Source: a bacterium | GTDB taxonomy: Bacteria; Zhuqueibacterota; Zhuqueibacteria; Residuimicrobiales; Krinioviventaceae | Direction: 5' to 3' | Length of the DNA stretch: 64,000 nt | Assembly: GCA_029561455.1 (NCBI GenBank) | Contig: JAKQIY010000085.1 | Location: forward strand, 1-64,000 | Shown: piece by piece, positions 6,367 to 62,173 of the stretch | Position numbering within the stretch: position 1 is the stretch's first letter | How the letters are laid out: every line of letters starts with the position of its first letter | The notes under the pieces: generated by a model | Seen by the model: the letters and a program-made list of their open reading frames with translations, nothing else | Databases searched by the model: none | What the model was told of the DNA's origin: nothing | Made by a program: the position numbers and the translations under genes

Positions 6367-6413
6367 TATCCTGGTAATGATTTTTTGTAAGACAATTTAA
6401 ATGGGAGTTGAAA

Positions 6414-11060: not shown

Positions 11061-11079
11061 ATACTTGAGGAATAGACAA

Positions 11080-13633: not shown

Positions 13634-13823
13634 CATAGACGAGTCACTAACAAGTTTTCATATTTTCCTGAGCAAGTAATTTTTTATCAAATTAGCGATA
13701 ATTTAATTATTAAGCATTTTACTTATTATATAAAATTTATTTGATTTATTACTTGTATTTACCGGGGACATGACTTCCCCGATCCAGAATTTAATAATTA
13801 AACAATTTATTTATGGAGGATTT

Positions 13824-22311: not shown

Positions 22312-22313
22312 TT

Positions 22314-22682
22314 ATGAAAAATAGTCCCAAAGTTATGATCGTAGAAGACGAAGCAATTACAGCAAAATGTCTGAAAATGGATCTGGAAGAACTGGGAATT
22401 ATTGTGCTGAATCCGGTTGCCAAAGGAGAGGATGCTGTAAAAATTGCATTACAAGAGAAACCAAATCTCATTCTCATGGATATACGCCTTGCCGGTGGTA
22501 TGGATGGTGTGGAAGCAGCCGAGGAAATTATCAGACAAATGAATATTCCGATAGTATTTATGAGCGGTTTTGCTACCGATTATATAAAACAACGTACTAT
22601 CAAAACCCAACCGATAGAATTCCTGGCAAAACCGGTAGATATATATAAAATTATTCAAATCATCAAGGCATTGCAAAAATAA
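22314..22682 (+). CDS. Stand-alone receiver (CheY-like) response regulator
   Basis: A 122-residue receiver domain with no output domain. Acidic pocket E11-D12, phospho-acceptor D56 (LILMDIRL), and the conserved Lys in FLAKPVD. It starts 3 bases after the kinase stop, so the two are one operon and a kinase-regulator pair. With no DNA-binding domain, it must act on a partner protein or pass the phosphate on. A close paralogue with the same length lies at 27757-28125. Confidence 0.92.
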   Translation: MKNSPKVMIVEDEAITAKCLKMDLEELGIIVLNPVAKGEDAVKIALQEKPNLILMDIRLAGGMDGVEAAEEIIRQMNIPIVFMSGFATDYIKQRTIKTQPIEFLAKPVDIYKIIQIIKALQK

Positions 22683-22801
22683 TTTGAATTATGTTACTAG
22701 ACAATACTTGGAATTTTATTTTTTACAGCTTTCCAGTTTTACCATAAAGAATCGCCGGGCTATAAGAAGGCTTTATTGTTAATATACGGAGGTCATTACT
22801 C

Positions 22802-25800
22802 TTGAAATACATTATGAGTGTGTTTTTTTTAATTCTGGTATCGATTAATAGCTCTGTTTTGTCATTTACAATTGAGAATCAATTTCAGCATTTCACAACA
22901 GAACAGGGGTTATCGAGCAGCAATGTGACCGGAATTATTCAGGATGACCAGGGTTTTATCTGGATTGGTACAGATAATGGACTTAATACGTATGACGGTT
23001 ACAATTTTAATGTTTATAAAAAAATTGCCAATGATTCATCAAGCCTCGTCCATAACCAGATCACTTTGTTATATTTGGATAGCCAAAAAAGATTATGGAT
23101 CGGGACAGTTTGGGGTTTAAGTTTATATAACCGGCAAAAAAATAATTTTGTAAATAATTTCACATTCAATAACCTTGAAACCCGCAAAAATGTCAAGTCG
23201 ATTATTGAGGATAAGAATTTTAATTTGTTGCTCATTTCCGATGATGGATTAATTTTTAAATTTGACGAACAAAGCCGTAATTTCAGGCAAATGTATGATT
23301 TAAATATGATGATCATGAGTTTTGCAATAGATCAAAACAATGATTTCTGGATCGGTAATCTGGATGGGCTGCATCACCTGAATATAAAAGACATGACCTT
23401 TACTCTTTATCAACACAAACCGGATGACGACAACAGTATCAGTAATAATATTGTTATGAGTTTATTGCAGGATCGTGATCGTCTATGGGTTGGTACAGCC
23501 GGTAATGGGCTGAATTTATATAACAGCAATACCAACTCCTTTAAACGATTGTTCATAAATAAAACCAATATATATTTTATTTACCGGGATGACCAGGGAA
23601 TAATCTGGTTTGGTACAAGTCAGGGTCTTATACAGTATAATGAACAAACCGGCCGGTATCATGAATATTTGCATGACAGTAAAGATCAAACCAGCCTCTC
23701 TTCCGAAGGGGCATCTTGTTGCATTAAAGACAGGCAAACGAATTTATGGGTAGGCACAAAATTCGGCGGTGTAAATTTCAGTTCAAAGAATAAGGCATTC
23801 AATTTTTTAAATCTGAAAAGTTCTCCACCGCTAACAAAAAACAATATCTCATCATTATTTATCGATAAAAAGGGAAATTTATGGGCCGGTTCATTTAATG
23901 AAGGTATTGATGTCATCAGCCGGGTGCGCGGGACAAAAATAAATTATGAACCGGACAGCAGGAATTCTTTCAGCATCGGTAAAGGGACAGTCCATACCAT
24001 ATTCCAGGATAGCCGGGGTGTAATATGGGTTAGCACTTTTGAGGGCGGTTTACAATATTATGATGAAAAAACCGGACGTTTTAAAAGCGTTGATATTATC
24101 TCCGCGAATAACCAGAGTGTTTTGAGCAGGGATATTCGTTCGATTGCTGAAGACAAACATAATAATTTATGGTTAGCCACACATGGCGCCGGGTTGTGTA
24201 AATATGATTATTATGCTAAAAAAACAACCTTTTATCAATTTGATCAAAATAACATTGAAAATTCTCTGGCAAATAACTGGTTATTTAAAATAATAATCGA
24301 CAGTAAAGAGCAGTTATGGATCGCTACTGCCAACGGGTTGACTTTGATGACGCCCGATGAAAAAATGACAAGTTTTCGTAATATATCGCATAATGAAAAC
24401 AGCCTAAGTAATGATGCTGTTTATACACTTTATGAAGATTGCCGGCAAAGGATTTGGGTGGGTACGGCTGAAGGTTTGAATTTATTCAATCCCCAATCAA
24501 AGTCTTTTACCAGGATCATGGAAAAAGATGGGTTGGCTAGCGATTATATATACGGAATTTTGGGAGATGAAAATGGTAATTTATGGTTAAGTACAAGTAA
24601 TTGTTTGATCAAATATAATCATGATACTCAAGTAATCAGGAATTATGATTACCGGGATGGTTTGTTATCCAATGAGTTTTTAATCAACTCATGTTTCAAA
24701 AACCATGATGGCGAGTTGTTATTCGGCGGCGTGAACGGTATTGTTACTTTTAATCCCGACAGCCTGCATGACAATCCCCATGCACCTTCAGTACACCTTG
24801 TCGATTTTAAAATATTCAATAAATCAGTGCCGATAGGTAATAATCCGAAACAGGATATTCTAACTGCACATATAGATCAAACCAGAAAGATACACCTGCA
24901 ACATGATCAAAATATGATTACTTTGCAATTTGTGGCTTTAAATTATATCTCACCGGGTAAAAACCAGTATGCTTACAAGTTAGAAGGCTTGGACAAGGAT
25001 TGGAATTTCGTCGTTTCAAAACGTGAGGCAAATTATACCAACCTCGATCCTGGCGAGTATACATTCAAGGTTAAAGCCTCAAATAATGACGGGATATGGA
25101 ATGAAACCGGTGTCGGTGTAAAAATAAAAATTTTTCCCCCGTTTTGGGAAACTCCCTGGTTTCAGATAGCCGGCGCAGTGATGTTATTGGCGGGCATTTG
25201 GTTCTTTTATCGTATTCGTACTTATCATATTCATCAACGGAACAGGTCGCTGGAAGTAAAAATTCAGGAACACACTCTTGAATTACAAATTGCCAATTCC
25301 AGCCTTAAAAAAGAAATGGATGAACGACTTGATGCGGAAAAAAACTTGCTGGCTACCAACCAGCGGTTACAAATATTACAACAGGTAACTGCAGCAGTCC
25401 ATGAAAGCCTCGACCCAAATAAAATCTTTCATGATATTACCGATGTCATTGTTAATAAAATGGGTTATTCATCTGCAATATTATTGACACTCGATGAGAA
25501 TGGCCAATGTTACAAAGCAATGTCGCTATCCTCATCAAAAAAAATATTAAATGGCTTTAATAACATTTTTGGACAGGATTTGCATAACATCACTTTTCCT
25601 GTAGATAAAGTGACCAATTGGTATAAAAAAACTATAAACAACAGAGAACTGGTCATCAATAAAAATCTTGAGGAAATAGCTTTTCCGCTATTGGACAAGC
25701 ATATCTGTCAATTATTTAACAACCTGGGCGGAAATCAAAATTTTATACTTATCCCCCTGGTGAAGAACCGTGAACTGATGGGTGGGCTTGTTATGTCCAG

Positions 25801-27760
25801 CAGCCGGCAAGCAATTCCTGAAGAAGATACAAAAATGTTGCAAGTGTATGCAAATACAGCATTACAGGCGATTATCAACGCCAATCTTTACCTGCAAACA
25901 GACCTGGCAAGGGAAGAAGTACGGAAAAGTGAAGAAAAATTCAGAACGTTGACAGAAAACATTACCATGGGCGTCTACAGAAGAACAAGCGGCAACCGTG
26001 GTAAAATCATTGAAGCAAATCCTGCATTGGTGAAAATGTTTAATTTCAACAGTAAAGAAGAATTCCTGGCCGCCAATTTCAACAAGCTCTTTCAGAATCA
26101 AAGTGAAAGAAAAGTTCTCAATAAAAAGCTGTTACAGCATGGTATGATAAGACACGAACAGATCAATTTTAAAAAACAAGATGGTTCTCCATTTATCGGC
26201 TCAATTTCGACAGTTGTAGTAAAGGATGATGCCGGTAAAATCAAATATTATGATGGTATTATCGAAGATATTACGGAACGCATACAAGCCGCTGAAACCC
26301 TGGAAAAAGAGCGCACCTTGCAGAGAACATTAATAGATAATCTGCCCTGCGGTGTGTTTGTAAAAAACAAAAATTACCAAAAAATCATTGTAAACCCGGT
26401 TCATATTGAGGAAGTAAAAAATCGCTTAAAATCACTCAAGATCAACCCGGATGTAAATTTACTTGATAAAACGGATTTTGATGTATTTCCTCAGGAACTG
26501 GCAGCCAGATTTTTTACAGAAGATCAAAAAGTGATCAAAGATGGAGAGATAATTTTAAACAAAGAAGAATATGGCGTTAAAGAAGACGGCTCCAAGGTAT
26601 GCCTTTTGGTTTCCAAAGTGCCGCTGCGTGATAAAGATGGTACTATCATTGGTATAGTAGGGATTACTAATGACATTACCGATCACCAGGTTGCCGCTGA
26701 AACCATTGAAAAGGAACGCACGTTGCTTCGCACTCTGATTGATAATTTGCCCGGTGGTGTTTTTGTAAAGGACAAGAACTATCGTAAAATTATTGTCAAT
26801 CCGATCCATGTCGATGGAGTTAAAGGTCATTTACAATTCCTGGGTATGAACTCGAATATTGATTTACTTGGGAAAAATGATTTCGAGGTTTTTCCCCAGG
26901 ACCTGGCAGAAAAGTTCAGTAAGGAAGATCAAAAAGTTGTTGAACATGGTCAGCTTATATTAAATCAGGAAGAATTTGGTGTAGATGCTAAAGGTGAAGA
27001 GGTTTGTCTTTCAGTGTCCAAAGTTCCATTACGAGATCAAGGTGGTTCTATAACCGGCATGGTAGGTATTACAGTCGATATATCTGAACAAAAACGGGCT
27101 CAGCAACAAATTCAAAAAGATTTAATGGAAAAACAGGTATTAATAAGAGAATTATATCACCGCACAAAAAACAATATGCAGGTCATATCTTCCATGCTGC
27201 GGCTGCATTCAAAACGAGTTAAAAATCAACAAGTTACAACAATTTTAAATGAAATTGAAAATAAAATATTATCCATGGCCCTGGTACATCAAAAATTATA
27301 CGAATCCAGGGACTTGTCGCATTTAAATTTAAAGGACTATTTTAACAGCCTGGTTTCCCTGTTAAGAATGATACACAGCAATTCTTCCACAAATATTAAT
27401 TTTATTGTGGAAGGTGAAGAAATAAATGTTCTCATCGATACCGCTATTCCCTGCGGGTTGATCATCAATGAATTATTGACCAATTCAATAAAATATGCCT
27501 TTCCCGATAAAAAAGACGGCACTATAACAATCAGCCTCAAGATTGATGAAAAAAATCAACTTTTGATCAAAGTTGCCGATAATGGTATTGGACTACCCGT
27601 AAGCTTTGATTTTGATCAAGACTGTAACCTGGGCCTGGAATCAGTCATAGGTCTGGTAAGACATCAACTACAGGGTGAGGTCAGTTTTGTAAATAAAGAT
27701 GGATTAACCTGTAATATTTGTCTTAAAGAACAATCCTATAAACCCAAGAATATATCATGA
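22802..27760 (+). CDS. Propeller sensor kinase with GAF and three PAS domains
   Basis: A 1652-residue paralogue of the kinase at 19102. Order: signal peptide; periplasmic propeller (about 25-690); Y_Y_Y domain (about 700-770); membrane helix (about 786-804); coiled coil (about 810-855); GAF-like domain (about 858-1030); a PAS (about 1040-1165) ending YYDGIIEDITERIQ; two further PAS domains (about 1170-1300 and 1305-1435) that are near copies of one another (LIDNLPxGVFVKxKNY...); HisKA_2 with H1453 (RELYHRTKNNMQVISSML); HATPase (NELLTNSIKYAF, VADNGIGLP). It can therefore combine a periplasmic signal with one or more cytoplasmic cues. TTG or ATG start near 22802, with GGAGG at about 22789. The stop overlaps the next gene by 4 bases. 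Confidence 0.92.
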   Translation: MKYIMSVFFLILVSINSSVLSFTIENQFQHFTTEQGLSSSNVTGIIQDDQGFIWIGTDNGLNTYDGYNFNVYKKIANDSSSLVHNQITLLYLDSQKRLWIGTVWGLSLYNRQKNNFVNNFTFNNLETRKNVKSIIEDKNFNLLLISDDGLIFKFDEQSRNFRQMYDLNMMIMSFAIDQNNDFWIGNLDGLHHLNIKDMTFTLYQHKPDDDNSISNNIVMSLLQDRDRLWVGTAGNGLNLYNSNTNSFKRLFINKTNIYFIYRDDQGIIWFGTSQGLIQYNEQTGRYHEYLHDSKDQTSLSSEGASCCIKDRQTNLWVGTKFGGVNFSSKNKAFNFLNLKSSPPLTKNNISSLFIDKKGNLWAGSFNEGIDVISRVRGTKINYEPDSRNSFSIGKGTVHTIFQDSRGVIWVSTFEGGLQYYDEKTGRFKSVDIISANNQSVLSRDIRSIAEDKHNNLWLATHGAGLCKYDYYAKKTTFYQFDQNNIENSLANNWLFKIIIDSKEQLWIATANGLTLMTPDEKMTSFRNISHNENSLSNDAVYTLYEDCRQRIWVGTAEGLNLFNPQSKSFTRIMEKDGLASDYIYGILGDENGNLWLSTSNCLIKYNHDTQVIRNYDYRDGLLSNEFLINSCFKNHDGELLFGGVNGIVTFNPDSLHDNPHAPSVHLVDFKIFNKSVPIGNNPKQDILTAHIDQTRKIHLQHDQNMITLQFVALNYISPGKNQYAYKLEGLDKDWNFVVSKREANYTNLDPGEYTFKVKASNNDGIWNETGVGVKIKIFPPFWETPWFQIAGAVMLLAGIWFFYRIRTYHIHQRNRSLEVKIQEHTLELQIANSSLKKEMDERLDAEKNLLATNQRLQILQQVTAAVHESLDPNKIFHDITDVIVNKMGYSSAILLTLDENGQCYKAMSLSSSKKILNGFNNIFGQDLHNITFPVDKVTNWYKKTINNRELVINKNLEEIAFPLLDKHICQLFNNLGGNQNFILIPLVKNRELMGGLVMSSSRQAIPEEDTKMLQVYANTALQAIINANLYLQTDLAREEVRKSEEKFRTLTENITMGVYRRTSGNRGKIIEANPALVKMFNFNSKEEFLAANFNKLFQNQSERKVLNKKLLQHGMIRHEQINFKKQDGSPFIGSISTVVVKDDAGKIKYYDGIIEDITERIQAAETLEKERTLQRTLIDNLPCGVFVKNKNYQKIIVNPVHIEEVKNRLKSLKINPDVNLLDKTDFDVFPQELAARFFTEDQKVIKDGEIILNKEEYGVKEDGSKVCLLVSKVPLRDKDGTIIGIVGITNDITDHQVAAETIEKERTLLRTLIDNLPGGVFVKDKNYRKIIVNPIHVDGVKGHLQFLGMNSNIDLLGKNDFEVFPQDLAEKFSKEDQKVVEHGQLILNQEEFGVDAKGEEVCLSVSKVPLRDQGGSITGMVGITVDISEQKRAQQQIQKDLMEKQVLIRELYHRTKNNMQVISSMLRLHSKRVKNQQVTTILNEIENKILSMALVHQKLYESRDLSHLNLKDYFNSLVSLLRMIHSNSSTNINFIVEGEEINVLIDTAIPCGLIINELLTNSIKYAFPDKKDGTITISLKIDEKNQLLIKVADNGIGLPVSFDFDQDCNLGLESVIGLVRHQLQGEVSFVNKDGLTCNICLKEQSYKPKNIS

Positions 27761-28125
27761 GCGATAATATTAAAGTATTGATTGTTGAAGATGAAGCGAT
27801 AACTGCAAAATGTTTGCAAATGGATTTAGAAGATATGGGTTTGGAGGTTATAAACCCGGTATCAAATGGCGAAGATGCAATTAAAGTTGCCCAGTTGGAA
27901 CATCCATCGCTGATACTGATGGATATTCGTTTGGCCGGCAAGATGGATGGGATTGAAACCGCAGAAAAAATTCTTAGCAATCAAAAAATACCCATAATAT
28001 ATCTAACCGGTTTCTCTACCGGTTTAATCAAAGAACGCGCCCAGAAAACCAAACCGGTCGGTTTTGTGGAAAAACCGATAAATGTAAACAGAATTGTACA
28101 AATTATTAATACTATGGGGCATTAA
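27757..28125 (+). CDS. Stand-alone receiver response regulator, partner of the GAF/PAS kinase
   Basis: A 122-residue receiver domain with E11-D12, D56 (LILMDIRLAG) and the conserved Lys (FVEKPIN). The start ATG overlaps the kinase stop (ATGA), so translation is coupled. It is the same length as, and clearly paralogous to, the receiver at 22314, showing that the whole kinase-receiver pair was duplicated and then diverged. No output domain. Confidence 0.92.
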   Translation: MSDNIKVLIVEDEAITAKCLQMDLEDMGLEVINPVSNGEDAIKVAQLEHPSLILMDIRLAGKMDGIETAEKILSNQKIPIIYLTGFSTGLIKERAQKTKPVGFVEKPINVNRIVQIINTMGH

Positions 28126-29332: not shown

Positions 29333-32300
29333 TTACTTTAAAAACAAGAGTTTGCGGGTTTGGGTAAAACCATTCGCTTTCATTTGGTAGAAATACACTC
29401 CGCCGGCAATGTTATTCGGACGCCAGGTTACATTATACAGACCTGGAGAATAGAATTGATCCGCAACTATAGCCACTTCCCTGCCGAGAATATCGAACAC
29501 CTTTATTGTTACCATACCCGGTTTGGCAACAGCAAAAGACAGTCTGGTTTCCGGGTTGAACGGATTGGGATAATTCGCATACAGGGCGAATTGCTGCGGC
29601 AATGCCGGTTCCGGTTTGACCTCGGTAGCCAGATCGGTCTGTCCGGGCGAGCCGTGTACGTTATGTGAAGAACGCCAGTAAGCGGCGTCATCGGGATCGC
29701 CGGTAGGATTATTTTGCGCGCTTACCAGGGAATAGCCGAGGCTGTCCGGCAACGTTGGCCAGGGGGCTTTGTCATTATATCGGACATTGATAATTGTGTC
29801 GCCGGTGGCGCTGAGCATAACGATCCGTTCCCCGCCGTTATCCAACTGGCCGTCGTATTCGCCATCCGGGGTGAACTGATAACGCTGCTGGAACATGGCG
29901 GGATTGGAAGCAATAACATAATAAGCGCCGGGATCGAGAGTGGTTGCAGCCGGGAATGTATAATCGACGCCATTAACAAAAGCAGCATTAGTCAGATTGA
30001 CAATCGCAGCTCCGGTATTTCTTACTTCCAAAAACTCGAACTCTTTATCATCAACATCGCCATCATCCAGGGGATGATAATGAATTTCCGTTATTTTAAT
30101 CATACCCAGGTCTTCCCCTGCCAGGAAAGATATTTCGTGCAAGGCGCTCCAGGTATTGTTATTTTTAATTCTGGCTTTTAAAATCGAGGTAGAGCTAATT
30201 GAAACATCAACCTGGTCGCCGCCGTCAATAGCAGTGGGAGAAGCGGCGCCGCCAATCAGCCGGGGATCGCTGCCGTCCAGGGTATATAAAATATTACCCT
30301 GCTTGTTATTGGGGTTAATCAGCGTCAGAGCATACCCTGAGGTGATATTGACAGATGATTCAATGATCTCAACATTTTGATGCAAGACGGTGGGCGGATC
30401 GATGTTTACATACAAGCTCTCGTCATAAAGTTGATCGAGAACAATTGCCGGACGTTCCGGGAAATAGTCATCGACAATTTGATTAACAATTGGCAACCAG
30501 TCATCATCTTTGGTGCGCGGCGTCCAGTTGCCGTTCGAATCACCCCAACGAGCTGATTCCGCGATAATAGCCATTTCGATCTCTTTGGTACGGCCGGTAA
30601 AAATTTTGGTGGTATTGGCAGGAACAAACACACCGTTGTTATAAAATTGTTTATAAACATGATCGATAAAGCGCATGCGGTATTCCGCATTATCGCATAA
30701 TTTATAATGCAGCCATTGCGGGTGGAATTTATTAAAATCCCACACCTCCATCCTATTCCAGTCATCGAGCTCGTGCAGGTTAACACGATTCTCATTAATA
30801 CCATCACCAATGCTCACATAATCATAAAGCAGGGTATGTTCCGCATCATGGGATAAAAATTTGAATCCTTCATTATCATTGCGGTTGTAAATGGCATAAA
30901 AATTATTTGGGTCCTTGTTGCTGCGAAACTTGGAAACCGGCGAATCAAAGTTCCCCGTATAAAAGATGATCAACATATAGTCGATCAGATTATCAATATC
31001 AACCAGATTTCTTCCCTCAGGATTTTTACTGCCGTCGGCATTCAAACCCTGGAGTTGAAAATAGTTGGCATTGCCGGTAAAACCCACCTGGCAGGCGTCA
31101 AACACTTCTTGCCAGGCATCTAGGTTGCCGTCGGTTGCTTCAATATCATAAGAACCGGAGCCGAAATTATCCGCAATATTAATTTTAATAACATCATAAT
31201 CATCACTGTTCCCACCCATATAGGAGGCGGCAAAAGAAGCTTCCGGGCGTTCCTGGGTTTGAAATATTCCCCAGTACATGCCATTAAGGTATAAATGATA
31301 AAACCGGCTGCGGGTATAGGGCTGACCCATTTCACGCTGCATATCGCGGGAAAAAACATCTCGCGTCATAGTATTATACCGGCCATCGCCGCCGCTGTAA
31401 AAACTCCAGGAATAATTTTGTGAAGTGCGCAAGTCCACTTTATCAAACTCATCCACACCCTCATCGCCAAACAGAGGAAATTTCAACTTGGCGTGGCCAT
31501 ATTCCTCCTCGCGGAAAAACAGGCGAAAAGCGTGTTTGGGATTGTAACCATGCCGGCTCCAGCCGCCGCGGATACGCAGCCCGGCATTGATTTGAAATCC
31601 CGTGCTGCCGTCCGGGTTGATTAATTCCACAGAGACCGGCCGTTCCCATTCCATGCCATGGTAGAGAGCATTGACATAAATACCGGTCTGGGGGTCAAAA
31701 AGGTTATCATTATCTGTAACCAGTGAAAAAGTGGGAATATCTTTGAACGCATCAATCATATCTTTATTGTAACGGGAATCATTGACAACCCGGGAATCCA
31801 TATCATAATCCAAACCCTGATCGTTCACCATATATTCAGGCCAGTCACCGCCGGGATAGGTCTGGGTTAGCACTTTGTCCAGGAATATATAGGAATGAGT
31901 TATAACTTCCGAAGCCTGTACGCCATTTTGCATGATCACTGCGCTAACCGTCACGCAGGGCGTTTTGGCGCGGCCGGTGGTTGAATTGGGGTTAACGGCA
32001 ACCGTTGCAGCGCCACTAGTCGTAAAAGCAGAGGCGGAAGACAAGGGATCGGAACCGTCCAGGGTATACTTGATCTGATAACTGGGCAGAATTGAAGAAA
32101 TTGACAAGTTAAAATTTGTTTCATAAAAACCGCGTTCAGGATAAAAAACCGGGGTGTCTGCCCAATCTGCCCGTTTAACCTTGACTTCTACACTATCGGA
32201 AATCGTCGTAGCCCCATCGTTATCAAAAGCAACTGCTGCCAGTTTATGGGTGCCGCGGAGGGCGTTTTCCCAGTTGATTGTATAAGGAGCAGCGTTTACT

Positions 32301-33025
32301 TGTCCGATCTTGGTGTTATTGGCGTAAAATTCCACTTTAGCAATCGTGCCATCTTCATCCACTGCGGTTGCTTCTATTGGGATAATTTCCCCTTCATCAA
32401 ATTTATCGCCGTCATCGGGAGTGACAATTTCAACACTTGGTGGTTTGGTATTGAGAATCCGTTTAATATCGAGATAATTAATATTAAAATTGCTGCTTTC
32501 AATGACAATTTTCATTACCTGCTGACCGGCATTAAGAGTAAATTCCGGAGATTTTACAGTGACCCAGGTTTGCCAGCCGCCGGTGCGGGTAGCAGTTATA
32601 GTATTAGTAAGATTGACATTGTTAAATTCGACATGGAAAGCGCCGTCAACATCCTGCGCCGCTGTTCGGGCTTCAATCTGGTAAATAGCCGAACTGGTAA
32701 CGTTTACCGTATATTCAATCCATTCTCCGGCAACGATCCAACCAACATTATAGCCGCCTTCACCACAACTTTCAATATCAACATCCACATCATTGCGATA
32801 AGAACTGCCGCTATTACCGGCATCGGAATCATGATAGGCGACACCTTCACCGCCGTTATCAAAATTTTCCACTTCAATTTTACCGGGAATTGCAAAAGCA
32901 GAGCCGTTGAATGGCGTTTGTTCCGCAGCTAACAAAGCCGCACTGAACATGAACAGTATTAAACAACAAATTGTTAACAGTACAAACGGTGAAGTCGGTA
33001 ACGGAATTGAATTTCTTTTATTCAT
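29333..33025 (-). CDS. Giant secreted CotH protein with CBM6, lamin-tail and sorting domains
   Basis: A 1230-residue exported protein. ATG 33025 is preferred over an upstream GTG because AAAGG sits just before it. After a signal peptide: a CBM6-like domain (about 30-160, KIEVENFDNGGEGVAYHD... and VGWIVAGEWIEYTVNV), an Ig-like domain (about 170-265, ATAVDEDGTIAKVEFYAN), a chitobiase-type domain (KYTLDGSDPLSS), a CotH kinase domain (about 380-800, GFQINAGLRIRGGWSRHGYNPKHAFRLFF is in its core), a second chitobiase-like domain (LYTLDGSDPR), a lamin-tail domain (KITEIHYHP..., EFLEVRNTG) and a sorting domain (YPNPFNPETRLSF to RKLLFLK). CotH proteins are atypical protein kinases in spores, and also occur in cellulosomes. 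Function in the extracellular setting is unknown. Confidence 0.9.
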   Translation of the reverse strand: MNKRNSIPLPTSPFVLLTICCLILFMFSAALLAAEQTPFNGSAFAIPGKIEVENFDNGGEGVAYHDSDAGNSGSSYRNDVDVDIESCGEGGYNVGWIVAGEWIEYTVNVTSSAIYQIEARTAAQDVDGAFHVEFNNVNLTNTITATRTGGWQTWVTVKSPEFTLNAGQQVMKIVIESSNFNINYLDIKRILNTKPPSVEIVTPDDGDKFDEGEIIPIEATAVDEDGTIAKVEFYANNTKIGQVNAAPYTINWENALRGTHKLAAVAFDNDGATTISDSVEVKVKRADWADTPVFYPERGFYETNFNLSISSILPSYQIKYTLDGSDPLSSASAFTTSGAATVAVNPNSTTGRAKTPCVTVSAVIMQNGVQASEVITHSYIFLDKVLTQTYPGGDWPEYMVNDQGLDYDMDSRVVNDSRYNKDMIDAFKDIPTFSLVTDNDNLFDPQTGIYVNALYHGMEWERPVSVELINPDGSTGFQINAGLRIRGGWSRHGYNPKHAFRLFFREEEYGHAKLKFPLFGDEGVDEFDKVDLRTSQNYSWSFYSGGDGRYNTMTRDVFSRDMQREMGQPYTRSRFYHLYLNGMYWGIFQTQERPEASFAASYMGGNSDDYDVIKINIADNFGSGSYDIEATDGNLDAWQEVFDACQVGFTGNANYFQLQGLNADGSKNPEGRNLVDIDNLIDYMLIIFYTGNFDSPVSKFRSNKDPNNFYAIYNRNDNEGFKFLSHDAEHTLLYDYVSIGDGINENRVNLHELDDWNRMEVWDFNKFHPQWLHYKLCDNAEYRMRFIDHVYKQFYNNGVFVPANTTKIFTGRTKEIEMAIIAESARWGDSNGNWTPRTKDDDWLPIVNQIVDDYFPERPAIVLDQLYDESLYVNIDPPTVLHQNVEIIESSVNITSGYALTLINPNNKQGNILYTLDGSDPRLIGGAASPTAIDGGDQVDVSISSTSILKARIKNNNTWSALHEISFLAGEDLGMIKITEIHYHPLDDGDVDDKEFEFLEVRNTGAAIVNLTNAAFVNGVDYTFPAATTLDPGAYYVIASNPAMFQQRYQFTPDGEYDGQLDNGGERIVMLSATGDTIINVRYNDKAPWPTLPDSLGYSLVSAQNNPTGDPDDAAYWRSSHNVHGSPGQTDLATEVKPEPALPQQFALYANYPNPFNPETRLSFAVAKPGMVTIKVFDILGREVAIVADQFYSPGLYNVTWRPNNIAGGVYFYQMKANGFTQTRKLLFLK

Positions 33026-33059
33026 ACATATACCTTTCAAGTTTAACACCTGTAATTAT

Positions 33060-41754: not shown

Positions 41755-41841
41755 AAAGCAGTCGACTTGCCTGGTAAACAACAAGTTCGGCAATACCGGT
41801 TTAATACCAGAGCATATTACTTTAAAAAAGGAAGTAGAAAA

Positions 41842-43665
41842 TTGAAAAGGTATCTTGTACATTGTATTGCCGCCGGTCTAATCCTGGCAACAACTCTCAT
41901 ACCGTCAATAACACTTGCGCAGCCAACTCTGTTGTCCGGTGTTCTGGAAAAAGATACTACCCTGACCAGCATCCATAACCCCTGGCAGGTAGATAGCGAC
42001 CTGGTGGTGCCGGCCGATATTACTCTTACCATAACTGCCGGTGTAGAAATCAATTTCAACAGCGCCGCTACCCTGATCATAGAAGAGGACGGTAAACTTG
42101 TTGCCGCCGGCACAGCGGAAAACAGAATACGTTTTACCAATTTACCCGAAAAAAAATGGAACGGCGTCAGGTTCCTGAATACCCGAAAAGATAATTACCT
42201 GGGCTATGTGGATATGCTTTATGGCGATGCCGGCAGTTACATGCTCCTGGTAGATAATTCTAAATTACTGATTGAAAGCATGACCTGGGTAACCCCGAAT
42301 AAAACCGTACTTGAAGTGGATCATCCGCAACTGCTTGTCAGGAACAGCGTTTTCCCCAGTGTGCAAAGCGTTGAAGTCGTTCACGGCCAAACCCTGGCAG
42401 ACGACGATTATTTAATTCTGGATGGCAATACCTTTGGCTCAACTACCGATTATAATGATGTAATAGATTTTTCCAACTGCAAACGCCCGGGCCCCATACT
42501 TCAAGCCTATAACAACATATTTCTTGGCGGCGGCGATGACGGCCTGGACCTGGACGGCTGCGACGCGCATATTGAAGGCAATCTTTTTACAAACTTTCAC
42601 CGCGATCCGGATAACCCGGGCACGTCGAATGCTGTATCTACAGGGGAAAGGTATAGCCGAACATCGGATATAACCCTGGTGCGCAATATTTTTATCAATA
42701 ATGATCATTCCGTTTTACTGAAAGAAGATTGTTTTTTACAGGCGGAAAATAATGTCTTTGTCAATAGTACTGAAGCAGTAGTCAATTTCAGTGAATGGCC
42801 GCTGCGTGATGTCGCGCCGGGCAAGGGAGCAACCTTTATCGGCAATATTTTCTGGAACAATACCGCGCCATTTGAAAACCAGTTCGCGCAGTCGGGCGAC
42901 ACCGACCCGGTCATTCAGGTACACCAATGTCTTATCGATAGCGCCTTTCATTATCTCGGTTCCGGGAATATCGACGCCGATCCCCTGTTTGTTGATGCCG
43001 GCAATGATTTTCACCTGCAAGACGGCTCCCCGGCAATTGGCGCAGGGCCGAACGGCCTGGATATGGGCAGGTATGTTCCAGCCGGGGTATCGATCAGTGG
43101 CGAACCGGATTCGGTAACCACAGAGACGACTGCGGCGCTGACTATCGGCGGCCCCGGTATTACTCACTATAGGTATAATATCAACAATACTGCGGATAAC
43201 TGGAGCGATGAAATCAGTATTCAGGATCATCCCGTTTTACAGTTGTCCGGTTTGCAGCCGGGAACAACCTATACGGTTTATGTAAAGGGTAAAAATTCGG
43301 CCGGTACCTGGCAGCAACAGCCTGAATTTGCAACTTCAAAATCCTGGATAGTGGATACCCTTAACACCGGTATTGACCATAAAAAACCGCAACAGCTTCC
43401 CGCACAATGCCGCTTGTATCAAAACACCCCCAATCCATTCAATCCGGTTACAACCATCACCTTTGAACTGGCGCAGGATGGCCAAGTTTTGCTGGAGATA
43501 TTTAACCTGTACGGACAAAAAGTAGCTGTATTGGCTGAAGGTGATTATAAACAAGGCGCTCATCTCATTACCTGGAATGCTGCGCCCTATGCCGGCGGCG
43601 TATACTATTGTCGTTTGCTTCATGGTAATTACAACTTGAGCCAAAAAATGCTATTATTAAAATGA
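41842..43665 (+). CDS. Secreted right-handed beta-helix protein with sorting domain
   Basis: A 607-residue exported protein. The start is a TTG at 41842 with AAAGGAAG upstream, placing it just before KRYLVHCIAAGLILATTLIPS and a cleavage site at LAQP. Residues about 60-430 form a parallel beta-helix (VPADITLTITAGVEINF, YNNIFLGGGDDGLDLDGCDAHIEGN, NNVFVNSTEAVVNFSEW, DADPLFVDAGNDFHLQDGSPAIGAG), as in pectate-lyase-like and copper-binding NosD-like folds. A fibronectin-like part (about 430-515) and a diverged sorting domain (TPNPFNPVTTITF to KMLLLK) follow. No catalytic residues of polysaccharide lyases could be assigned; ligand unknown. Confidence 0.85.
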   Translation: MKRYLVHCIAAGLILATTLIPSITLAQPTLLSGVLEKDTTLTSIHNPWQVDSDLVVPADITLTITAGVEINFNSAATLIIEEDGKLVAAGTAENRIRFTNLPEKKWNGVRFLNTRKDNYLGYVDMLYGDAGSYMLLVDNSKLLIESMTWVTPNKTVLEVDHPQLLVRNSVFPSVQSVEVVHGQTLADDDYLILDGNTFGSTTDYNDVIDFSNCKRPGPILQAYNNIFLGGGDDGLDLDGCDAHIEGNLFTNFHRDPDNPGTSNAVSTGERYSRTSDITLVRNIFINNDHSVLLKEDCFLQAENNVFVNSTEAVVNFSEWPLRDVAPGKGATFIGNIFWNNTAPFENQFAQSGDTDPVIQVHQCLIDSAFHYLGSGNIDADPLFVDAGNDFHLQDGSPAIGAGPNGLDMGRYVPAGVSISGEPDSVTTETTAALTIGGPGITHYRYNINNTADNWSDEISIQDHPVLQLSGLQPGTTYTVYVKGKNSAGTWQQQPEFATSKSWIVDTLNTGIDHKKPQQLPAQCRLYQNTPNPFNPVTTITFELAQDGQVLLEIFNLYGQKVAVLAEGDYKQGAHLITWNAAPYAGGVYYCRLLHGNYNLSQKMLLLK

Positions 43666-51491: not shown

Positions 51492-53579
51492 TCAATCCAG
51501 TCCCCGTTTTTTCAACAATGGTTCGATGCGCGGTTCGGCATGGCGGAAGCGTTTGTACAAGATCATGGGGTCTTCAGTGCCGCCGGCGGCCAAAATATTT
51601 TCACGAAATGCCTGTGCTGTTGTTTGGTCAAACAGGCTGGTTTCCTTGAACGCCTGAAAAGCGTCGCTGTCCAGCACTTCCGCCCAGATATAGCTATAGT
51701 ATCCGGCTGAATATCCCCCGGCAAAGATATGCCGGAAGAACGGACTTTTATACCGCGAGACAATTTCCGGGATCAGGCCGATTTTATCCAGAGACTGCTG
51801 TTCAAAAACAACTGCATCGCGCAGGGTGGTATCGGCAATGGTGTGCCAATCCATATCCAATATGGAAGCGGCCAGGTATTCCACTGTATTGAAACCCTGG
51901 TTAAAAAGCGAGGAGTTCTTAATTTTGGCAACTAATTCATCGGGTAACGGTTCGCCGGTTTGGTAATGAAAAGCATAATATTTAAGCACTTCAGGTTCGG
52001 TCGCCCAGTTTTCCATGATCTGCGACGGCAATTCCACAAAATCGCGCGGCACAGCGGTGCCGGATAAACGATAATAAGTACAGTTGGACAGCAGTCCGTG
52101 CAGGGCATGACCGAATTCATGGAACAGGGTTTCCACTTCATCAAGGCTCAACAGGCTGGGCGTGTCGCCGGATGGTTTGGTAAAATTACACACATTGCAA
52201 ATAACCGGCGATTCCTTAGCCGGGAAATTGGACTGTTTGCGAAAGCTGTCCATCCAGGCGCCGCCGCGTTTGCTGGCGCGCGGAAAATAATCCGTATACA
52301 GAATACCGATATGTGTTCCATCAACATCCTTGACTTCAAATGCTTTGGCATCGGGATGATAGACCGGCAGGTCGGGTCGTTCCTCAAAATCAATACCATA
52401 TAAGGTAGTGGCGACAAAAAAGGCGCCATTACGGACATTTTCCAGTTTAAAATAAGGGCGCAGTTGTTCATCGTCGAGGGCATATTTGGCTTTTTTCAGT
52501 TTTTCCGCATAATACCACCAGTCCCATGCTTCCAGCTTGAAATTATTGCCTTCAGCATCTATAATTGCCTGCATTTCTTTCACTTCACCGCGGGCGCGTT
52601 TTTGCGCCGGCGTCCAGAGTTTCATTAACAAGTCATAAACGTTGGCCGGAGTTTTAGCCATATTTTCTTCCAAAACAAAATCGGCGTGGGTTTTATAACC
52701 GAGCAATTGGGCGCTTTTGACGCGCAGCGCGGCAATACGCGCCAGGATCTGCTTGTTATCGTACTCATCGTTGTTATTGCCGCGGTCGTTATAGGCGCGG
52801 AACATCTTTTCGCGCAGCTCGCGTTTTTGCGAATACTGTAAAAACGGAATGAGACTGGGTTTATGCAAGGTGAATATCCATTTGCCCTCTTGCCCTTTTT
52901 CTTTGGCGGTCTCAGCGGCGGCGGTAATAACGCTTTCAGGCAGACCGGCCAGGTCCGCGGAATCCTCGATCACCAGGGTAAAGCGGTTGTCTTCGGCCAG
53001 CACATTATCGCCAAATTTCAGGGTCAGCACGGACAATTCGCTGTTGATCTTTTTCAGTTCTTCTTTTTGCGCGTCATTCAGGTTGGCGCCACCGCGGACA
53101 AAATCTTTATAATATTCTGTTAGCAGCATCAACTGTTCGGGATTTAAATTCAAGGTTTCTTTTTGATCATAAACCGCTTTGACGCGGGCAAACAGCGCGG
53201 CGTTCATGGAAATATCGTCATAATGTTTACTCATCATGGGCGATATTTTTTGGGCAATGGCCTGCAGCTTGTCATTGGTATTGGCATCGATCATGTTATC
53301 GAACACATTCTCCACCCGGCGCAGCAGCATGCCGGTTTTTTCCATAGCTTCAATAGTATTGGCAAATGTCGGCGCTTCAGGGTTGGCGGCGATTTCCGCT
53401 ATTTCTTTATTCTCCTGCTCGATGCCTTTTTCATAGGCCGGCAGGTAATCTTTATCGGTAATCAAAGCAAACGGCGGTACTCCAAACGGCGTATCCCATT
53501 CCATAAAGAACGGCTTTTCTTTTTTTGCACAGGACATAAGCAGCATCCCCATTAAAAAAATGACGGTTAGTTTTTTCAT
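51492..53579 (-). CDS. M3-family metallopeptidase lipoprotein (peptidyl-dipeptidase/oligopeptidase-like)
   Basis: A 695-residue exported lipoprotein (signal ending LLMSCAKK). It has the M3 zinc site H487-E488-F-G-H491 in ETLFHEFGHALHG, followed by the third-ligand region ELPSQIMENWATE, as in Dcp and thimet oligopeptidase. The length is typical for Dcp. It would cleave dipeptides from the C-terminus of short peptides, here outside the inner membrane (Dcp is often cytoplasmic or periplasmic). Single gene on the minus strand. Confidence 0.92.
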   Translation of the reverse strand: MKKLTVIFLMGMLLMSCAKKEKPFFMEWDTPFGVPPFALITDKDYLPAYEKGIEQENKEIAEIAANPEAPTFANTIEAMEKTGMLLRRVENVFDNMIDANTNDKLQAIAQKISPMMSKHYDDISMNAALFARVKAVYDQKETLNLNPEQLMLLTEYYKDFVRGGANLNDAQKEELKKINSELSVLTLKFGDNVLAEDNRFTLVIEDSADLAGLPESVITAAAETAKEKGQEGKWIFTLHKPSLIPFLQYSQKRELREKMFRAYNDRGNNNDEYDNKQILARIAALRVKSAQLLGYKTHADFVLEENMAKTPANVYDLLMKLWTPAQKRARGEVKEMQAIIDAEGNNFKLEAWDWWYYAEKLKKAKYALDDEQLRPYFKLENVRNGAFFVATTLYGIDFEERPDLPVYHPDAKAFEVKDVDGTHIGILYTDYFPRASKRGGAWMDSFRKQSNFPAKESPVICNVCNFTKPSGDTPSLLSLDEVETLFHEFGHALHGLLSNCTYYRLSGTAVPRDFVELPSQIMENWATEPEVLKYYAFHYQTGEPLPDELVAKIKNSSLFNQGFNTVEYLAASILDMDWHTIADTTLRDAVVFEQQSLDKIGLIPEIVSRYKSPFFRHIFAGGYSAGYYSYIWAEVLDSDAFQAFKETSLFDQTTAQAFRENILAAGGTEDPMILYKRFRHAEPRIEPLLKKRGLD

Positions 53580-54134: not shown

Positions 54135-57100
54135 ATGTCAAATTTAATAGAAATTACAGGTGAAGATATTGCATTACTTAATGATAGTGATCTTCGTAAC
54201 TTGATAGGTTTATTATGCGAAGCAGATTTTCGATTAGCTGAGCTTTCAATAAAGGGAATAGTATGGGGTGGCTCACAAGATGCAAGTGATGGTGGTCTGG
54301 ATGTTTTTGTGCAAAGTTCAACACCGCCGCCGCAAAATAGTTTTATACCTAGAAATATTACAGGGTACCAAGTAAAAAAATCAAATATTAGACCAAGTAA
54401 AATAATTCAGGAAATGCAACCTAATGGTATTTTACGTGAATCAATTAAATCGCTTATTCAAAATAATGGAGCATATATTATCGTTAGTTCAGGCTCATCT
54501 GTTACAGTATATTACATGAAAAAACGAATTGATATGATGAAGGAAGCTATTAAAAATGAAAGAAATTCCCAAAATTTACATTTAGATTTTTATGATCGCG
54601 GACGCATTGCAACCTGGGTGAGAACACATCCTTCTTTAATTTTATGGGTACGAAATAAAATTGGTCGTCCATTAAACGGATGGAAACCTTATGAAAATTG
54701 GGCAAATGCGCCTGGTGGGATAGAGGAAGAATATCTTTTAGACGATGGCTTGCGATTGTATGATAGAAACAGCAATATTAAAAAGGGAATGAGTGCTTTA
54801 GATGGTATAAAAATCCTCAGAGCCAATCTTTTAATAAATCGTAAATCTGTTCGATTAACAGGTTTGTCTGGCGTTGGCAAAACAAGATTTGTACAGGCTT
54901 TATTTGATGATAGAATTGCTGATAATTCACTCAATCGTTCTCTGGCATTTTATACTGATATGTCCCATAATCCCTCACCTACTCCATCAGAATTTGCTGA
55001 ACAGCTTGTTGCAAAAAGAACCAGGGCTATTCTTATAATAGATAATTGTCCGCAAGAATTGCATCGTCAATTGACTCAGATTTGTACTAAACCTGATTGT
55101 CTTTTGAGCTTATTAACGATCGAATATAATATTCATGATGATCTTCCAGAAGAAACAGATGTGTTTACATTAGAGGCGGCCAGTGATGAAGTTATTGAAA
55201 AATTAATCAACAAACGTTTTAAGCATTTAAGTTTTAGTGATGCCCATATAATTGCCCAATTCTCAGGAGGAAATGCACGAGTAGCAATAGCCCTTTCCAA
55301 TACAGTAGAAAAAGGTGAAACGCTATCTGGTTTTCGGGATAAAGAATTATTCAATAGACTTTTCTATCAACGACAAGGGGAAAATGAAAATTTACAAAAA
55401 TCTGCAGAAGTATGTTCACTTGTTTATTCATTCGAAGGGACAGATACTAAATCAGAAAAATCAGAAATAAAATTTTTAGCTTCTCTTATTGATAAAACAA
55501 GTTCAGATTTATTTAGAGATATTAAAACACTTAGGGACCGGGATTTGATCCAATCGCGTGGGGTATGGAGAGCTATTCTCCCCCATGCAATAGCAAATCG
55601 ACTTGCTAAAGATGCTCTCGAATCCATTCCAAAAGAAATAATTATTGAAGCATTTTCTAATAGCGATTCAGAACGTCTAATTAAATCTTTTAGCCGCAGG
55701 CTTAATTTCCTTCATGATTCTCAGCCAGCAAAAGAGATAGTTGATGACTGGTTAAAAAAAGATGGTTGGCTTGGAAAAGAAAATTGTAATTTTAATGATT
55801 TTGGAATAGATGTATTTATCAATATCGCGCCTGTGTCGCCGGAAAGGACTTTAGAAGCAATAGAACAAGCTGCGAATGTAAATAATGAATTCCTTTTTTC
55901 ATCAAAAGAGAATAAGCATTTTGATGATTTTGTTCAAATTTTATGGCATTTAGCTTACGACCCAGAGTTATTTAATAGAAGTGTAAAATTATTATGCCGT
56001 TTTGCTTTATCAGAAAAAAAGAAAGGGACTAATAATTTATCTTATAATTCACTAAAATCTCTATTCTATTTAAAATGGTCTGGTACCCATGCCCCGATTG
56101 AATTAAGATCCGCATTTATTGTACAGTTAGTTGATGCTATAAACATTGACCAACAGGAATTAGGTCTTTTTCTGTTGGATGCTACTCTGGAAACAGGGTT
56201 TATTTCTCAAATATATAATTATAGTTTTGGAGCAAGATCAAGAAACATTGGTTATTACCCTAAAACACCAAAAGAATATATCTGTTGGTTTGAAACTTTT
56301 ATAAGTATTTGTACACGATTAGCTCTTTCAGGTCTACCAATAGCCAGAAAAGCACGGAAGGTTTTATCCGACAATTTGCATGGTTTATGGATAAATGCCG
56401 AGATGTATGATACTATTGAAACTTCTGTAAAACAAATTAATGATCAACAAGCATGGAATGAGGGTTGGATTGCTATTCGAGGTATAATACGGTATTATAA
56501 TAAGCATGATAAAAAAGGGATTACAAAAAAACTTTTAGAACTGGAAAAACATATAAAACCCAAAAATCTTTTGGAACAAGCACGTACTTATGCATTATCG
56601 GAATCAGACCAGTCACATGCATTTGATTTATTTGATGATTATGAAGATAAAAATAAACCATCCGAAAGTTTTAAACGATTTTCAGAAACAATAAGAAAAA
56701 TTGGTTCACAAGTTGCACAAGATATGGAAACATTTAATACTTTATTACCTGAGTTAGTTTCTACTAATAATCCAAGATTGTCTAATTTTGGGGAAGGATT
56801 AGCAGTAGGGTGTAGCGATAAACAAAAAATATGGCTAAAATTATATTCTCAACTTGAAAAGACTCCAATTGAAAAACGTTCAATTAATATATTTATTGGT
56901 TTTTTATCTTCATGCGCAAAAAGTGACCTTGTAATTTTTAACTCAATACTTGATAAATTAATAAATGATGAGCTATTAGGGGAATGGTTACCAATTTTTC
57001 AAACTTTCACATTAATTGATAAAAAAGGTGTTGAACGATTGCACAAAGCTTTAGATAATGGTAAGTTCAAGATAAAAAAGTTTGAATATTTAGCTTATGG

Positions 57101-57983
57101 AAGAGTTCATGAATCAATTAATGATAATGATCTAGCCAACCTATTAAGTAAAATCATTCAAAAAAAAGATGGTATTGAGGTTGTTATCGAAATCCTGAAA
57201 ATGAGATTCTTCAGATCAGATGACAAAAAACAAAAACATTCAAAAAGTTTAATTGCAGTATCACGTAAAGCACTGTCAAGTTTTACCTGTATTGACAAGC
57301 AAAGGATGCATGATAATGATAATAATGATTATGCTCTTGCAAAAATAGCACAAATAAGTCTTATTGGACAAGATAGTAAAGATGCTGCCAGATTAATATA
57401 TCGACAAATTGTAAGTGCAATAATTAACAATCAAATTTATACTAATAACTACTCAGCATTACTTAACAGTCTAGCCCAAATTCAACCTTACATTTTTTTA
57501 GATGAGTTCCTTGGTAATGAAAAAATAATTAGAAGCCAAAGGGGTTGGTTATGTTTTGATGACTTAAATATAAATAGAAATCCATTAAGCCAGATATCAA
57601 TTGATGATATTATTAAATGGTGTGACGAAAATCCAGATAATAATTATCCATTAATTACGTCAGTAATTGAACTTTTCAAAGGTTCACCAGAAAATAAAGA
57701 GTTGCATTGGAATCCAGTTTTATTTACTATCTTTGAGAAAGCCCCAAACTTGACTATTGTTCTAAATCAACTTGCAGACAGAATAGAACCACATTCTTGG
57801 AGTGGTTCAAAAGTCAATATTTTACAACCAAGAGCAGAATTAATTCAAAAATTATGTAAAAATGATAACGAAGAAATTAGAATATGGGCAGAAAAACAAT
57901 ACTCTGATTTACTAAAGACAATAAAAGACTATACAGAATATGAAAAGAATATTTATTCAAAACATGATGAGTGCTTTGAGTAA
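54135..57983 (+). CDS. PD-(D/E)XK nuclease - STAND NTPase fusion (Avs-like defence protein candidate)
   Basis: A 1282-residue cytoplasmic protein, AT-rich unlike its neighbours. The N-terminal domain (about 1-170) has E29, then GGLDV with D56, then GYQVKKS with Q79 and K81, the PD-(D/E)XK/Mrr-like nuclease pattern. A P-loop NTPase follows: Walker A GLSGVGKT at 243-250, Walker B AILIIDN at 298-304, and STAND-like sensor and arm regions with TLIEYN-like LLTIEYNIHDD. The remainder (about 480-1282) is helical, probably a TPR/HEAT-like sensor. Nuclease-STAND-sensor layout is that of Avs antiphage proteins, in which phage protein binding triggers oligomerisation and DNA cleavage. Immune function is inferred. 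Sequence family not recognised. AAAGGA is 13 bases from the ATG, a long spacing. Confidence 0.75.
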   Translation: MSNLIEITGEDIALLNDSDLRNLIGLLCEADFRLAELSIKGIVWGGSQDASDGGLDVFVQSSTPPPQNSFIPRNITGYQVKKSNIRPSKIIQEMQPNGILRESIKSLIQNNGAYIIVSSGSSVTVYYMKKRIDMMKEAIKNERNSQNLHLDFYDRGRIATWVRTHPSLILWVRNKIGRPLNGWKPYENWANAPGGIEEEYLLDDGLRLYDRNSNIKKGMSALDGIKILRANLLINRKSVRLTGLSGVGKTRFVQALFDDRIADNSLNRSLAFYTDMSHNPSPTPSEFAEQLVAKRTRAILIIDNCPQELHRQLTQICTKPDCLLSLLTIEYNIHDDLPEETDVFTLEAASDEVIEKLINKRFKHLSFSDAHIIAQFSGGNARVAIALSNTVEKGETLSGFRDKELFNRLFYQRQGENENLQKSAEVCSLVYSFEGTDTKSEKSEIKFLASLIDKTSSDLFRDIKTLRDRDLIQSRGVWRAILPHAIANRLAKDALESIPKEIIIEAFSNSDSERLIKSFSRRLNFLHDSQPAKEIVDDWLKKDGWLGKENCNFNDFGIDVFINIAPVSPERTLEAIEQAANVNNEFLFSSKENKHFDDFVQILWHLAYDPELFNRSVKLLCRFALSEKKKGTNNLSYNSLKSLFYLKWSGTHAPIELRSAFIVQLVDAINIDQQELGLFLLDATLETGFISQIYNYSFGARSRNIGYYPKTPKEYICWFETFISICTRLALSGLPIARKARKVLSDNLHGLWINAEMYDTIETSVKQINDQQAWNEGWIAIRGIIRYYNKHDKKGITKKLLELEKHIKPKNLLEQARTYALSESDQSHAFDLFDDYEDKNKPSESFKRFSETIRKIGSQVAQDMETFNTLLPELVSTNNPRLSNFGEGLAVGCSDKQKIWLKLYSQLEKTPIEKRSINIFIGFLSSCAKSDLVIFNSILDKLINDELLGEWLPIFQTFTLIDKKGVERLHKALDNGKFKIKKFEYLAYGRVHESINDNDLANLLSKIIQKKDGIEVVIEILKMRFFRSDDKKQKHSKSLIAVSRKALSSFTCIDKQRMHDNDNNDYALAKIAQISLIGQDSKDAARLIYRQIVSAIINNQIYTNNYSALLNSLAQIQPYIFLDEFLGNEKIIRSQRGWLCFDDLNINRNPLSQISIDDIIKWCDENPDNNYPLITSVIELFKGSPENKELHWNPVLFTIFEKAPNLTIVLNQLADRIEPHSWSGSKVNILQPRAELIQKLCKNDNEEIRIWAEKQYSDLLKTIKDYTEYEKNIYSKHDECFE

Positions 57984-60568: not shown

Positions 60569-62173
60569 CTATCTGACGTACACCATTTTTATCACCTGCC
60601 GTTGCCCGGCGCATTGCAGCACGCCAAAATAGACGCCGCTGGTTGTCTGGATATTATTATTATCAGCGCCGTTCCATATCACAGCGTTACGGCCGGACTG
60701 CACATAGTCGTTGAGTAATGACCGTACCAACCGCCCCTGCAGATCATAGATATTTACCGTTAAATACCCCGGCGCCGGACTGGTAAACTGCAATGATGTG
60801 GAATGGTTAAAAGGATTGGGATAATTGGCAAGTTCAAGATCATACCGATCGGTGCGATCGTTCTCAATAATGTTAGTGTGGCAGCCCTGACCGTATTTAC
60901 CAATTGTAACGCCATTCTCTCCGGCATTAAGACAGGGCGAGCCTGCGCGCAAGCTATAGTCGCCGCTATCCGGGTTGCAGAATAACGGGTCGCCGGTTAT
61001 ATTATGCTCCTGCCAGTCCAGCAAGGAGAATTGACTGGTGGTAACAGACTGGATATTGTTTTGCACATCTGAATAATCAATATACAGGTTGCCGCCCAGT
61101 CCGTTGACATTTTGCAATTCTATCTGCCAGTCATTGCCCCATAGAATAGAATTCAAAACCCGCGCGTTCCCGCCGCCGCTTACCAGCAGGTTAGGGTACT
61201 CATCATGCGCATGATTGATCAGTGTGCAATTAAGAATATCTACCCTTGTTTTATTGGCGACATGGATAGCGCGGTGCACCAGGGAATCTCCCGGAGTTAC
61301 TGCCGGTTCGTGAGTAAACAGGCAATTGCTAATAGTCCCGCTTGCCTTGCCATAACAAAACAGCGTCACAGCGTCATCGGTTTTGGCGGCGCCGGAAAAA
61401 TCGCAGTTCTCTATTGTAAAAGTACAATGCAGTCCCGATAAAACCACACAAGTCACTTCAAAATTCTTGTTATATTCCTGTATTATATAACTGCCAACAG
61501 CGCCGGCCTGGTTATTGTAAAAATAACAGTCCTTGATCAACACATCAACACCTGCGGCGTTGGAGAATGAAGTCTTGAAGGCCAGGGCGCCGCCATAATT
61601 GGACGCATAATTCCCATCAAACCGGCAGTTACTGATCACAACCCGGTTGTTCAGCGCCGAATCGGCATTGGTAAAGACCAGCGCGCCGCCCCGCGACCAT
61701 TGATAGGTCTCCGCCCTGTTGTGCATAAAAATGCAATTCGTAATCGTCAAGTCGGCAGAGGCGGCTATGATACCGCCGCCAAAAGAATTGGTATACCCGT
61801 CTTTGATTGTAAAGCCTTCCAGATGCAGCGAACCGCCGGATACTTTAATAACACTGTATTCATTATTACCATTGATCTCCGTTAATTGCGGGCCTTGTAA
61901 ACTTTTGATAATCAGAGATTTGTTCAGTAACTCAATCCGCTCGGTATACACCCCTTCATTCACCACAATCGTATCCGGGGTGGTTGCTATTTTTATAGCC
62001 TTGTTAATGGATAAATAGGGGCTGTCAATGGCCCCGGTTCCGGTCTGGTCGCTACCTAGTTTGGCGACGTAAATTTTATTGCCGGTTGCAGCGCCGGCAC
62101 CAGACTGTAAAACAAGCAACAAAAGGCAGATATGAAATACCCATACCATTTTTATAACATTATAATTTTTCAT
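60569..62173 (-). CDS. Secreted right-handed beta-helix protein with sorting domain
   Basis: A 534-residue exported protein. A signal peptide (ICLLLLVLQSGAGA) is followed by a DUF1565/pectate-lyase-like start (IYVAKLGSDQTGTGAIDSPYLSINKAIKIATTPDTIVVNEGVYTE) and beta-helix coils with repeated Asn-Cys ladders (LTITNCIFMHN, VVISNCRFDGNYASNYGGALAF, VLIKDCYFYNNQAG, FTIENCDFSG, ISNCLFTHEP), then GDPLFCNPDSGDYSLRAGSPCLNAG and a sorting domain (YPNPFNHSTSLQF to VIKMVYVR). The Asn-Cys pattern is typical of parallel beta-helix surface proteins. Probably surface-bound; substrate unknown. Confidence 0.88.
   Translation of the reverse strand: MKNYNVIKMVWVFHICLLLLVLQSGAGAATGNKIYVAKLGSDQTGTGAIDSPYLSINKAIKIATTPDTIVVNEGVYTERIELLNKSLIIKSLQGPQLTEINGNNEYSVIKVSGGSLHLEGFTIKDGYTNSFGGGIIAASADLTITNCIFMHNRAETYQWSRGGALVFTNADSALNNRVVISNCRFDGNYASNYGGALAFKTSFSNAAGVDVLIKDCYFYNNQAGAVGSYIIQEYNKNFEVTCVVLSGLHCTFTIENCDFSGAAKTDDAVTLFCYGKASGTISNCLFTHEPAVTPGDSLVHRAIHVANKTRVDILNCTLINHAHDEYPNLLVSGGGNARVLNSILWGNDWQIELQNVNGLGGNLYIDYSDVQNNIQSVTTSQFSLLDWQEHNITGDPLFCNPDSGDYSLRAGSPCLNAGENGVTIGKYGQGCHTNIIENDRTDRYDLELANYPNPFNHSTSLQFTSPAPGYLTVNIYDLQGRLVRSLLNDYVQSGRNAVIWNGADNNNIQTTSGVYFGVLQCAGQRQVIKMVYVR

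Follow-up and report, generated by a model that had tools for sequence, protein, structure and literature searches.

PD-lambda-4, the closest described counterpart of the locus analyzed here, is one of the 21 systems recovered by a functional selection in Escherichia coli, a match of name that we make via PADLOC and a 2023 review table. According to the published account of the selection, it yielded 21 anti-phage systems, and PD-lambda-4 was selected and validated as reducing plaquing in E. coli, with protein A tested as part of the cloned system (Vassallo 2022, PMC9519451). The review table places PD-lambda-4 under P-loop NTPase only, and it is absent under PD-(D/E)XK (PMC10952713). RefSeq labels the E. 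coli homologues ‘hypothetical protein’ or ‘P-loop NTPase family protein’. PADLOC lists two components, PD-Lambda-4_A and PD-Lambda-4_B (PDLC03992). In the literature searched, we found neither a test of E. coli PD-lambda-4A by itself nor a description of the trigger of the family.

The window (the whole stretch of DNA analyzed, 64,000 nucleotides of a bacterial contig) carries an ATG-started open reading frame of 1282 codons, free of internal stops, whose product matches PD-Lambda-4_A in a PADLOC hmmscan with 1051.6 bits, aligning residues 4–1282 to positions 3–1283 of the 1283-position model (for E. coli A, that model gives 2524 bits). The two proteins are homologous over their full length (1282 versus 1283 aa, 31–32% identity) and have all nuclease and P-loop residues in common, but the window locus has no B gene, and its protein sits in another part of the tree than E. 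coli A. Pfam returned only weak, sub-threshold NACHT/AAA matches and NCBIfam no match, and therefore a first-pass annotation, made from the sequence alone, could not place the protein and described its sensor half as matching no recognized family. The full-length PADLOC match overturns that statement: by sequence homology, the protein is a PD-lambda-4A family member and its sensor half belongs to a described family, so this much is already known. The same annotation proposed an anti-phage defense candidate, which agrees with membership in a tested anti-phage family. With a probability of about 0.8, we read the gene as a single-gene system, acquired horizontally, whose PD-lambda-4A family product would act against phage by the mechanism outlined below. 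Its features are collected in Table 1.

Table 1. Features of the nuclease-STAND gene and of other proteins in the window.
Feature	Coordinates	Strand	Basis
PD-lambda-4A-like nuclease-STAND protein, single gene	54135..57983	+	ORF, 1282 aa; PADLOC PDLC03991 PD-Lambda-4_A
N-terminal Mrr-like PD-(D/E)XK domain (predicted), residues 1–180	54135..54674	+	conservation, model element order, hhalign
E29, first acidic residue of predicted nuclease site	54219..54221	+	82/85 relatives
D56, presumed metal-binding Asp in DGGxD (residues 52–56)	54300..54302	+	85/85 relatives
Q79-V80-K81, QxK of nuclease motif	54369..54377	+	Q and K 85/85 relatives
STAND-type P-loop NTPase, residues 236–400	54840..55334	+	weak NACHT/AAA matches, Foldseek, conservation
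NTPase motifs: Walker A GLSGVGKTR (243–251); Walker-B-like LIIDNC (300–305); GGNAR (378–382)			
Helical / winged-helix region, residues 401–500	55335..55634	+	secondary structure; conserved RxxWRAxLPHAIANxLA
HEAT-like alpha-solenoid sensor, residues 501–1282	55635..57980	+	model, Foldseek, falling identity
Invariant C-terminal Phe-Glu	57975..57980	+	F1281 and E1282 in 85/85 relatives
Proteins with ~89-aa C-terminal domain	374-1975, 2442-4100, 6408-7967, 10990-12189, 12380-13513		
Proteins with ~89-aa C-terminal domain, further	13770-14918, 15345-16763, 29333-33049, 41767-43665, 60569-62173		

The PD-(D/E)XK-type motifs proposed for the N-terminus are real. Across 85 aligned relatives, D52, D56, Q79 and K81 are each present in all 85 and E29 in 82, while position 80, read at first as part of a Q-V-K signature, is V, S, A or I; the motif is therefore QxK, of which the Q and K stand and the V does not. 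In the AlphaFold model, residues 1–180 follow an alpha-beta-beta-beta-alpha-beta order (helix 17–34, strands 42–44, 57–60 and 75–81, helices, strand 113–118), placing E29 within the first helix, D56 at a strand start and QxK where the following strand ends. Against 19 Mrr_cat sequences, hhalign gave a probability of 67.7 (E 4.9e-5 from one template) with the D and QxK in register, whereas control runs with the protein's own NTPase and winged-helix parts reached 0.3 and 0.2. The domain thus resembles Mrr-type nucleases (PF04471, Mrr_cat) in its E...DGG(I/L)D...QxK pattern and differs from them in being fused to a STAND protein.

The assignment of this domain as an Mrr-like PD-(D/E)XK nuclease, drawn from conservation and the model, is good but not proven, because direct PDB and Pfam searches gave nothing firm. 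A PDB profile search with residues 1–195 by themselves had no match; Pfam searches of the nuclease domain in 30 members found nothing except one weak DUF4365 match (E 4e-4); and Mrr_cat itself did not detect the window protein's N-terminal domain. Cap4/DUF4297 members for comparison were found neither in the genomes searched nor in the controls. With nuclease evidence this remote, the domain could instead bind nucleic acid without cutting it, with defense resulting from NTP depletion or from some other consequence of STAND assembly. We judge this unlikely, as the retention of E29, D52, D56, Q79 and K81 at the above counts in divergent relatives argues for catalysis.

The central NTPase also holds up as first described, with a P-loop and Walker A and B motifs. 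G243, G246, G248, K249 and T/S250 are kept in 85 of 85 relatives, and the Walker-B-like D303 in 84. In the D-N-C of this motif (residues 303–305, 55041–55049), N304 and C305 are invariant and the second acidic residue is missing; given the non-acidic Asn304, ATP hydrolysis may be slow or may use another residue. The structural model of residues 1–600 (77 sequences, pLDDT 88.8) had 106 PDB matches at E<=0.001 in Foldseek, the best being a STAND protein (6mfv, 1.4e-9), Avs4 (2.2e-7) and NOD2 (1.3e-6), along with Apaf-1, NLRP1 and NLRP3, and a weak sequence match to the plant NLR Roq1 (E 0.035) was seen as well. As modeled, the protein has the STAND/NLR core fold, and we infer that residues 401–500 are the STAND winged helix. 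It shares the NTPase and winged-helix core with NLR and STAND proteins (6mfv, NOD2, Apaf-1, NLRP1/3), but shows no LRR, CARD or TIR and carries a nuclease effector and a HEAT-like sensor.

The C-terminus is long and helical, as proposed: the AlphaFold model of residues 500–1282 (81 sequences, pLDDT 90.5) is almost entirely helix. Foldseek matched it to CAP-G, CAND1 and importins/exportins at E ~1e-4 with low TM-scores, so that the HEAT likeness denotes a general class only. Mean pairwise identity is 52% in the nuclease, 56% in the NTPase and 54% in the helical / winged-helix region, and falls along the solenoid from 39% to 31% to 29% toward the C-terminus. This gradient in sequence is the pattern expected when effector and switch stay fixed and the sensor changes. 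The Phe-Glu tail is fixed although the solenoid before it is ~29% identical, and these are the final two residues in all 12 alignment rows displayed. E. coli B also ends in Phe-Glu, a likeness to A that we considered and set aside as coincidence, because E. coli B ends early and the longer B proteins (loci L156 and L157) do not end there.

The nuclease-STAND-solenoid layout borne out by AlphaFold, Foldseek and hhalign is that of a STAND sensor, as the first-pass annotation had suggested, and the structure prediction and Foldseek search it called for returned a STAND core with Avs4 among the top matches. Its label ‘Avs-like’ applies to the working principle and the fold but not to the sequence. 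Like Avs1-4 (Avs4 structure 8dgf), the window protein combines an N-terminal nuclease, a central STAND NTPase and a long repeat sensor in one protein. Recognition of terminase or portal is a further trait of Avs1-4. The PADLOC collection includes Avs models, yet only PD-Lambda-4_A models matched at E<=1; Avs sensors are TPR-like, whereas this sensor resembles HEAT solenoids. By sequence, then, the protein is not one of Avs1-4, though it probably shares their way of working.

This analysis shows membership in the family, the layout of the domains, the conservation of active-site residues, the STAND fold, a sensor-like divergence and the lack of a partner gene. By analogy with Avs and NLR proteins, the HEAT-like C-terminal solenoid would bind a phage component made during infection. 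Ligand binding would free an ADP-locked STAND NTPase, which would take ATP and oligomerize. The N-terminal Mrr-like PD-(D/E)XK domains, clustered in this way, would pair and cut double-stranded DNA, both the nuclease activity and the DNA target being predicted. The DNA cut could be that of the phage alone or the cell's as well, and infection would be stopped.

Whether A acts by itself bears directly on this reading. The E. coli arrangement, with B lying 45 bp after A in most A-bearing genomes and both listed by PADLOC, is what a true two-component PD-lambda-4 would look like, with B elsewhere encoded or diverged beyond recognition in other genomes and A alone giving no defense. In E. coli EC71, which has this 45-bp spacing, B is split into 248 + 59 codons; longer forms of B exist. 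However, a search with E. coli B as query across 115 loci and the window found it only in the E. coli loci L008 and L009 and in L104, a viral contig nearly identical to an E. coli locus, and none in the window's genome (searched without a positive control genome), at a sensitivity reaching ~26–30% identity in plasmids. B homologues also occur without A, on two viral contigs (L156 and L157, 84–85% identity) and, there beside integrases, on Pseudomonas aeruginosa plasmids (L158 and L159, ~40%). On the L158 plasmid, the B homologue adjoins CBASS-type genes. An IS3-like element interrupts PD-lambda-4A in E. coli strain D1 (L009:7001-12105).

Nor does any other neighbor recur. An all-against-all clustering of neighbors at 107 loci, done in search of a conserved partner gene, found no family in >6 loci, and the two commonest families were integrase-like. 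A same-strand gene lay <=60 bp downstream in 18 loci, the only recurrent family coming from the E. coli ones, and a scan of 140 immediate neighbors found scattered defense genes only (e.g., Gabija-like, OLD-like). Because B lies beside A in the E. coli loci only and no other neighbor is conserved, the conserved unit at the loci examined (the best 80 of 377 genome relatives among them, some on short contigs) is A alone. A two-component system therefore appears rather unlikely. We lean toward the broader reading that PD-lambda-4 is not a two-gene system: A would be a STAND receptor, widespread and sufficient by itself, that joins an Mrr nuclease to a HEAT-like sensor and possibly has a new phage trigger, and B an independent mobile accessory that chances to follow A in E. 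coli.

Across 84,980 species genomes, a degenerate scan with an alignment query confirmed 377 relatives, of which the best 80 were examined; a contig scan with the window protein as single query had found none. Within that single collection of genomes, the family thus has at least 377 loci, in Pseudomonadota, Bacillota, Bacteroidota, Chloroflexota, Thermodesulfobacteriota and others. Further relatives were found on 41 plasmids and 17 viral contigs, and none among annotated phage records. We looked for the housekeeping context that would speak against a defense role and found the relatives instead on plasmids, on prophage-like contigs and in variable loci, without a conserved neighbor as far as the short contigs carrying some relatives allow the neighborhood to be viewed. 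The window gene stands alone, and no other window gene among those tested has a weighty PADLOC match, as might be expected of a STAND regulator outside defense or of a protein that maintains a mobile element. That role is very improbable, given the whole-length match to a tested defense protein, the patchy spread and the mobile contexts.

The gene is AT-rich and differs from its neighbors, as first noted (GC 31.8%, GC3 19%, against 42.2% for the window and 36–50% for other long genes). In a FastTree phylogeny, its protein groups with relatives from Thermodesulfobacteriota, Myxococcota, Gammaproteobacteria and Chloroflexota, sharing up to 58% identity, on a branch with moderate support (93). 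Of nine further genomes in the same taxonomic family, only one has a relative, with 25% identity and one in-frame stop (a TAA; G006:C5:2338771-2342571, loci L002 and L134). In a same-genus genome, gene order is kept up to an M3 peptidase (51492-53579), and beyond it no window genes were found on the far side. Because of the contrast in GC content and the absence of the gene from this sister genome and from most relatives, it was probably acquired horizontally. Direct or inverted repeats flanking the gene, considered as insertion marks, gave only weak, chance-level matches. A sigma-70 and terminator scan stayed near chance level, and no RNA families were found near the gene.

Elsewhere in the window, positions 19102-28125 encode a pair of large hybrid histidine kinases of the Reg_prop/Y_Y_Y type, and behind each comes a stand-alone receiver domain protein; the kinase at 22802-27760, the second of the pair, is AT-rich and contains GAF and PAS domains. 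The AT-rich 22–28 kb region was considered as a second group of defense genes and rejected, as it consists of the two kinases and their receivers. About ten window proteins have in common a C-terminal domain of ~89 aa (Table 1), which probably serves secretion or sorting.

What is new here is modest: the single-gene form, and a domain anatomy of which no description was found in the literature searched. PD-lambda-4, little described mechanistically in that literature, is now placed among the NLR-like STAND immune receptors, and conserved residues can be named as mutation targets for PD-lambda-4A. Our results suggest that nearly all relatives would escape defense-finding rules that require gene B. 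The HEAT-like sensor, along which conservation drops steeply, is a promising region in which to seek a new phage trigger.
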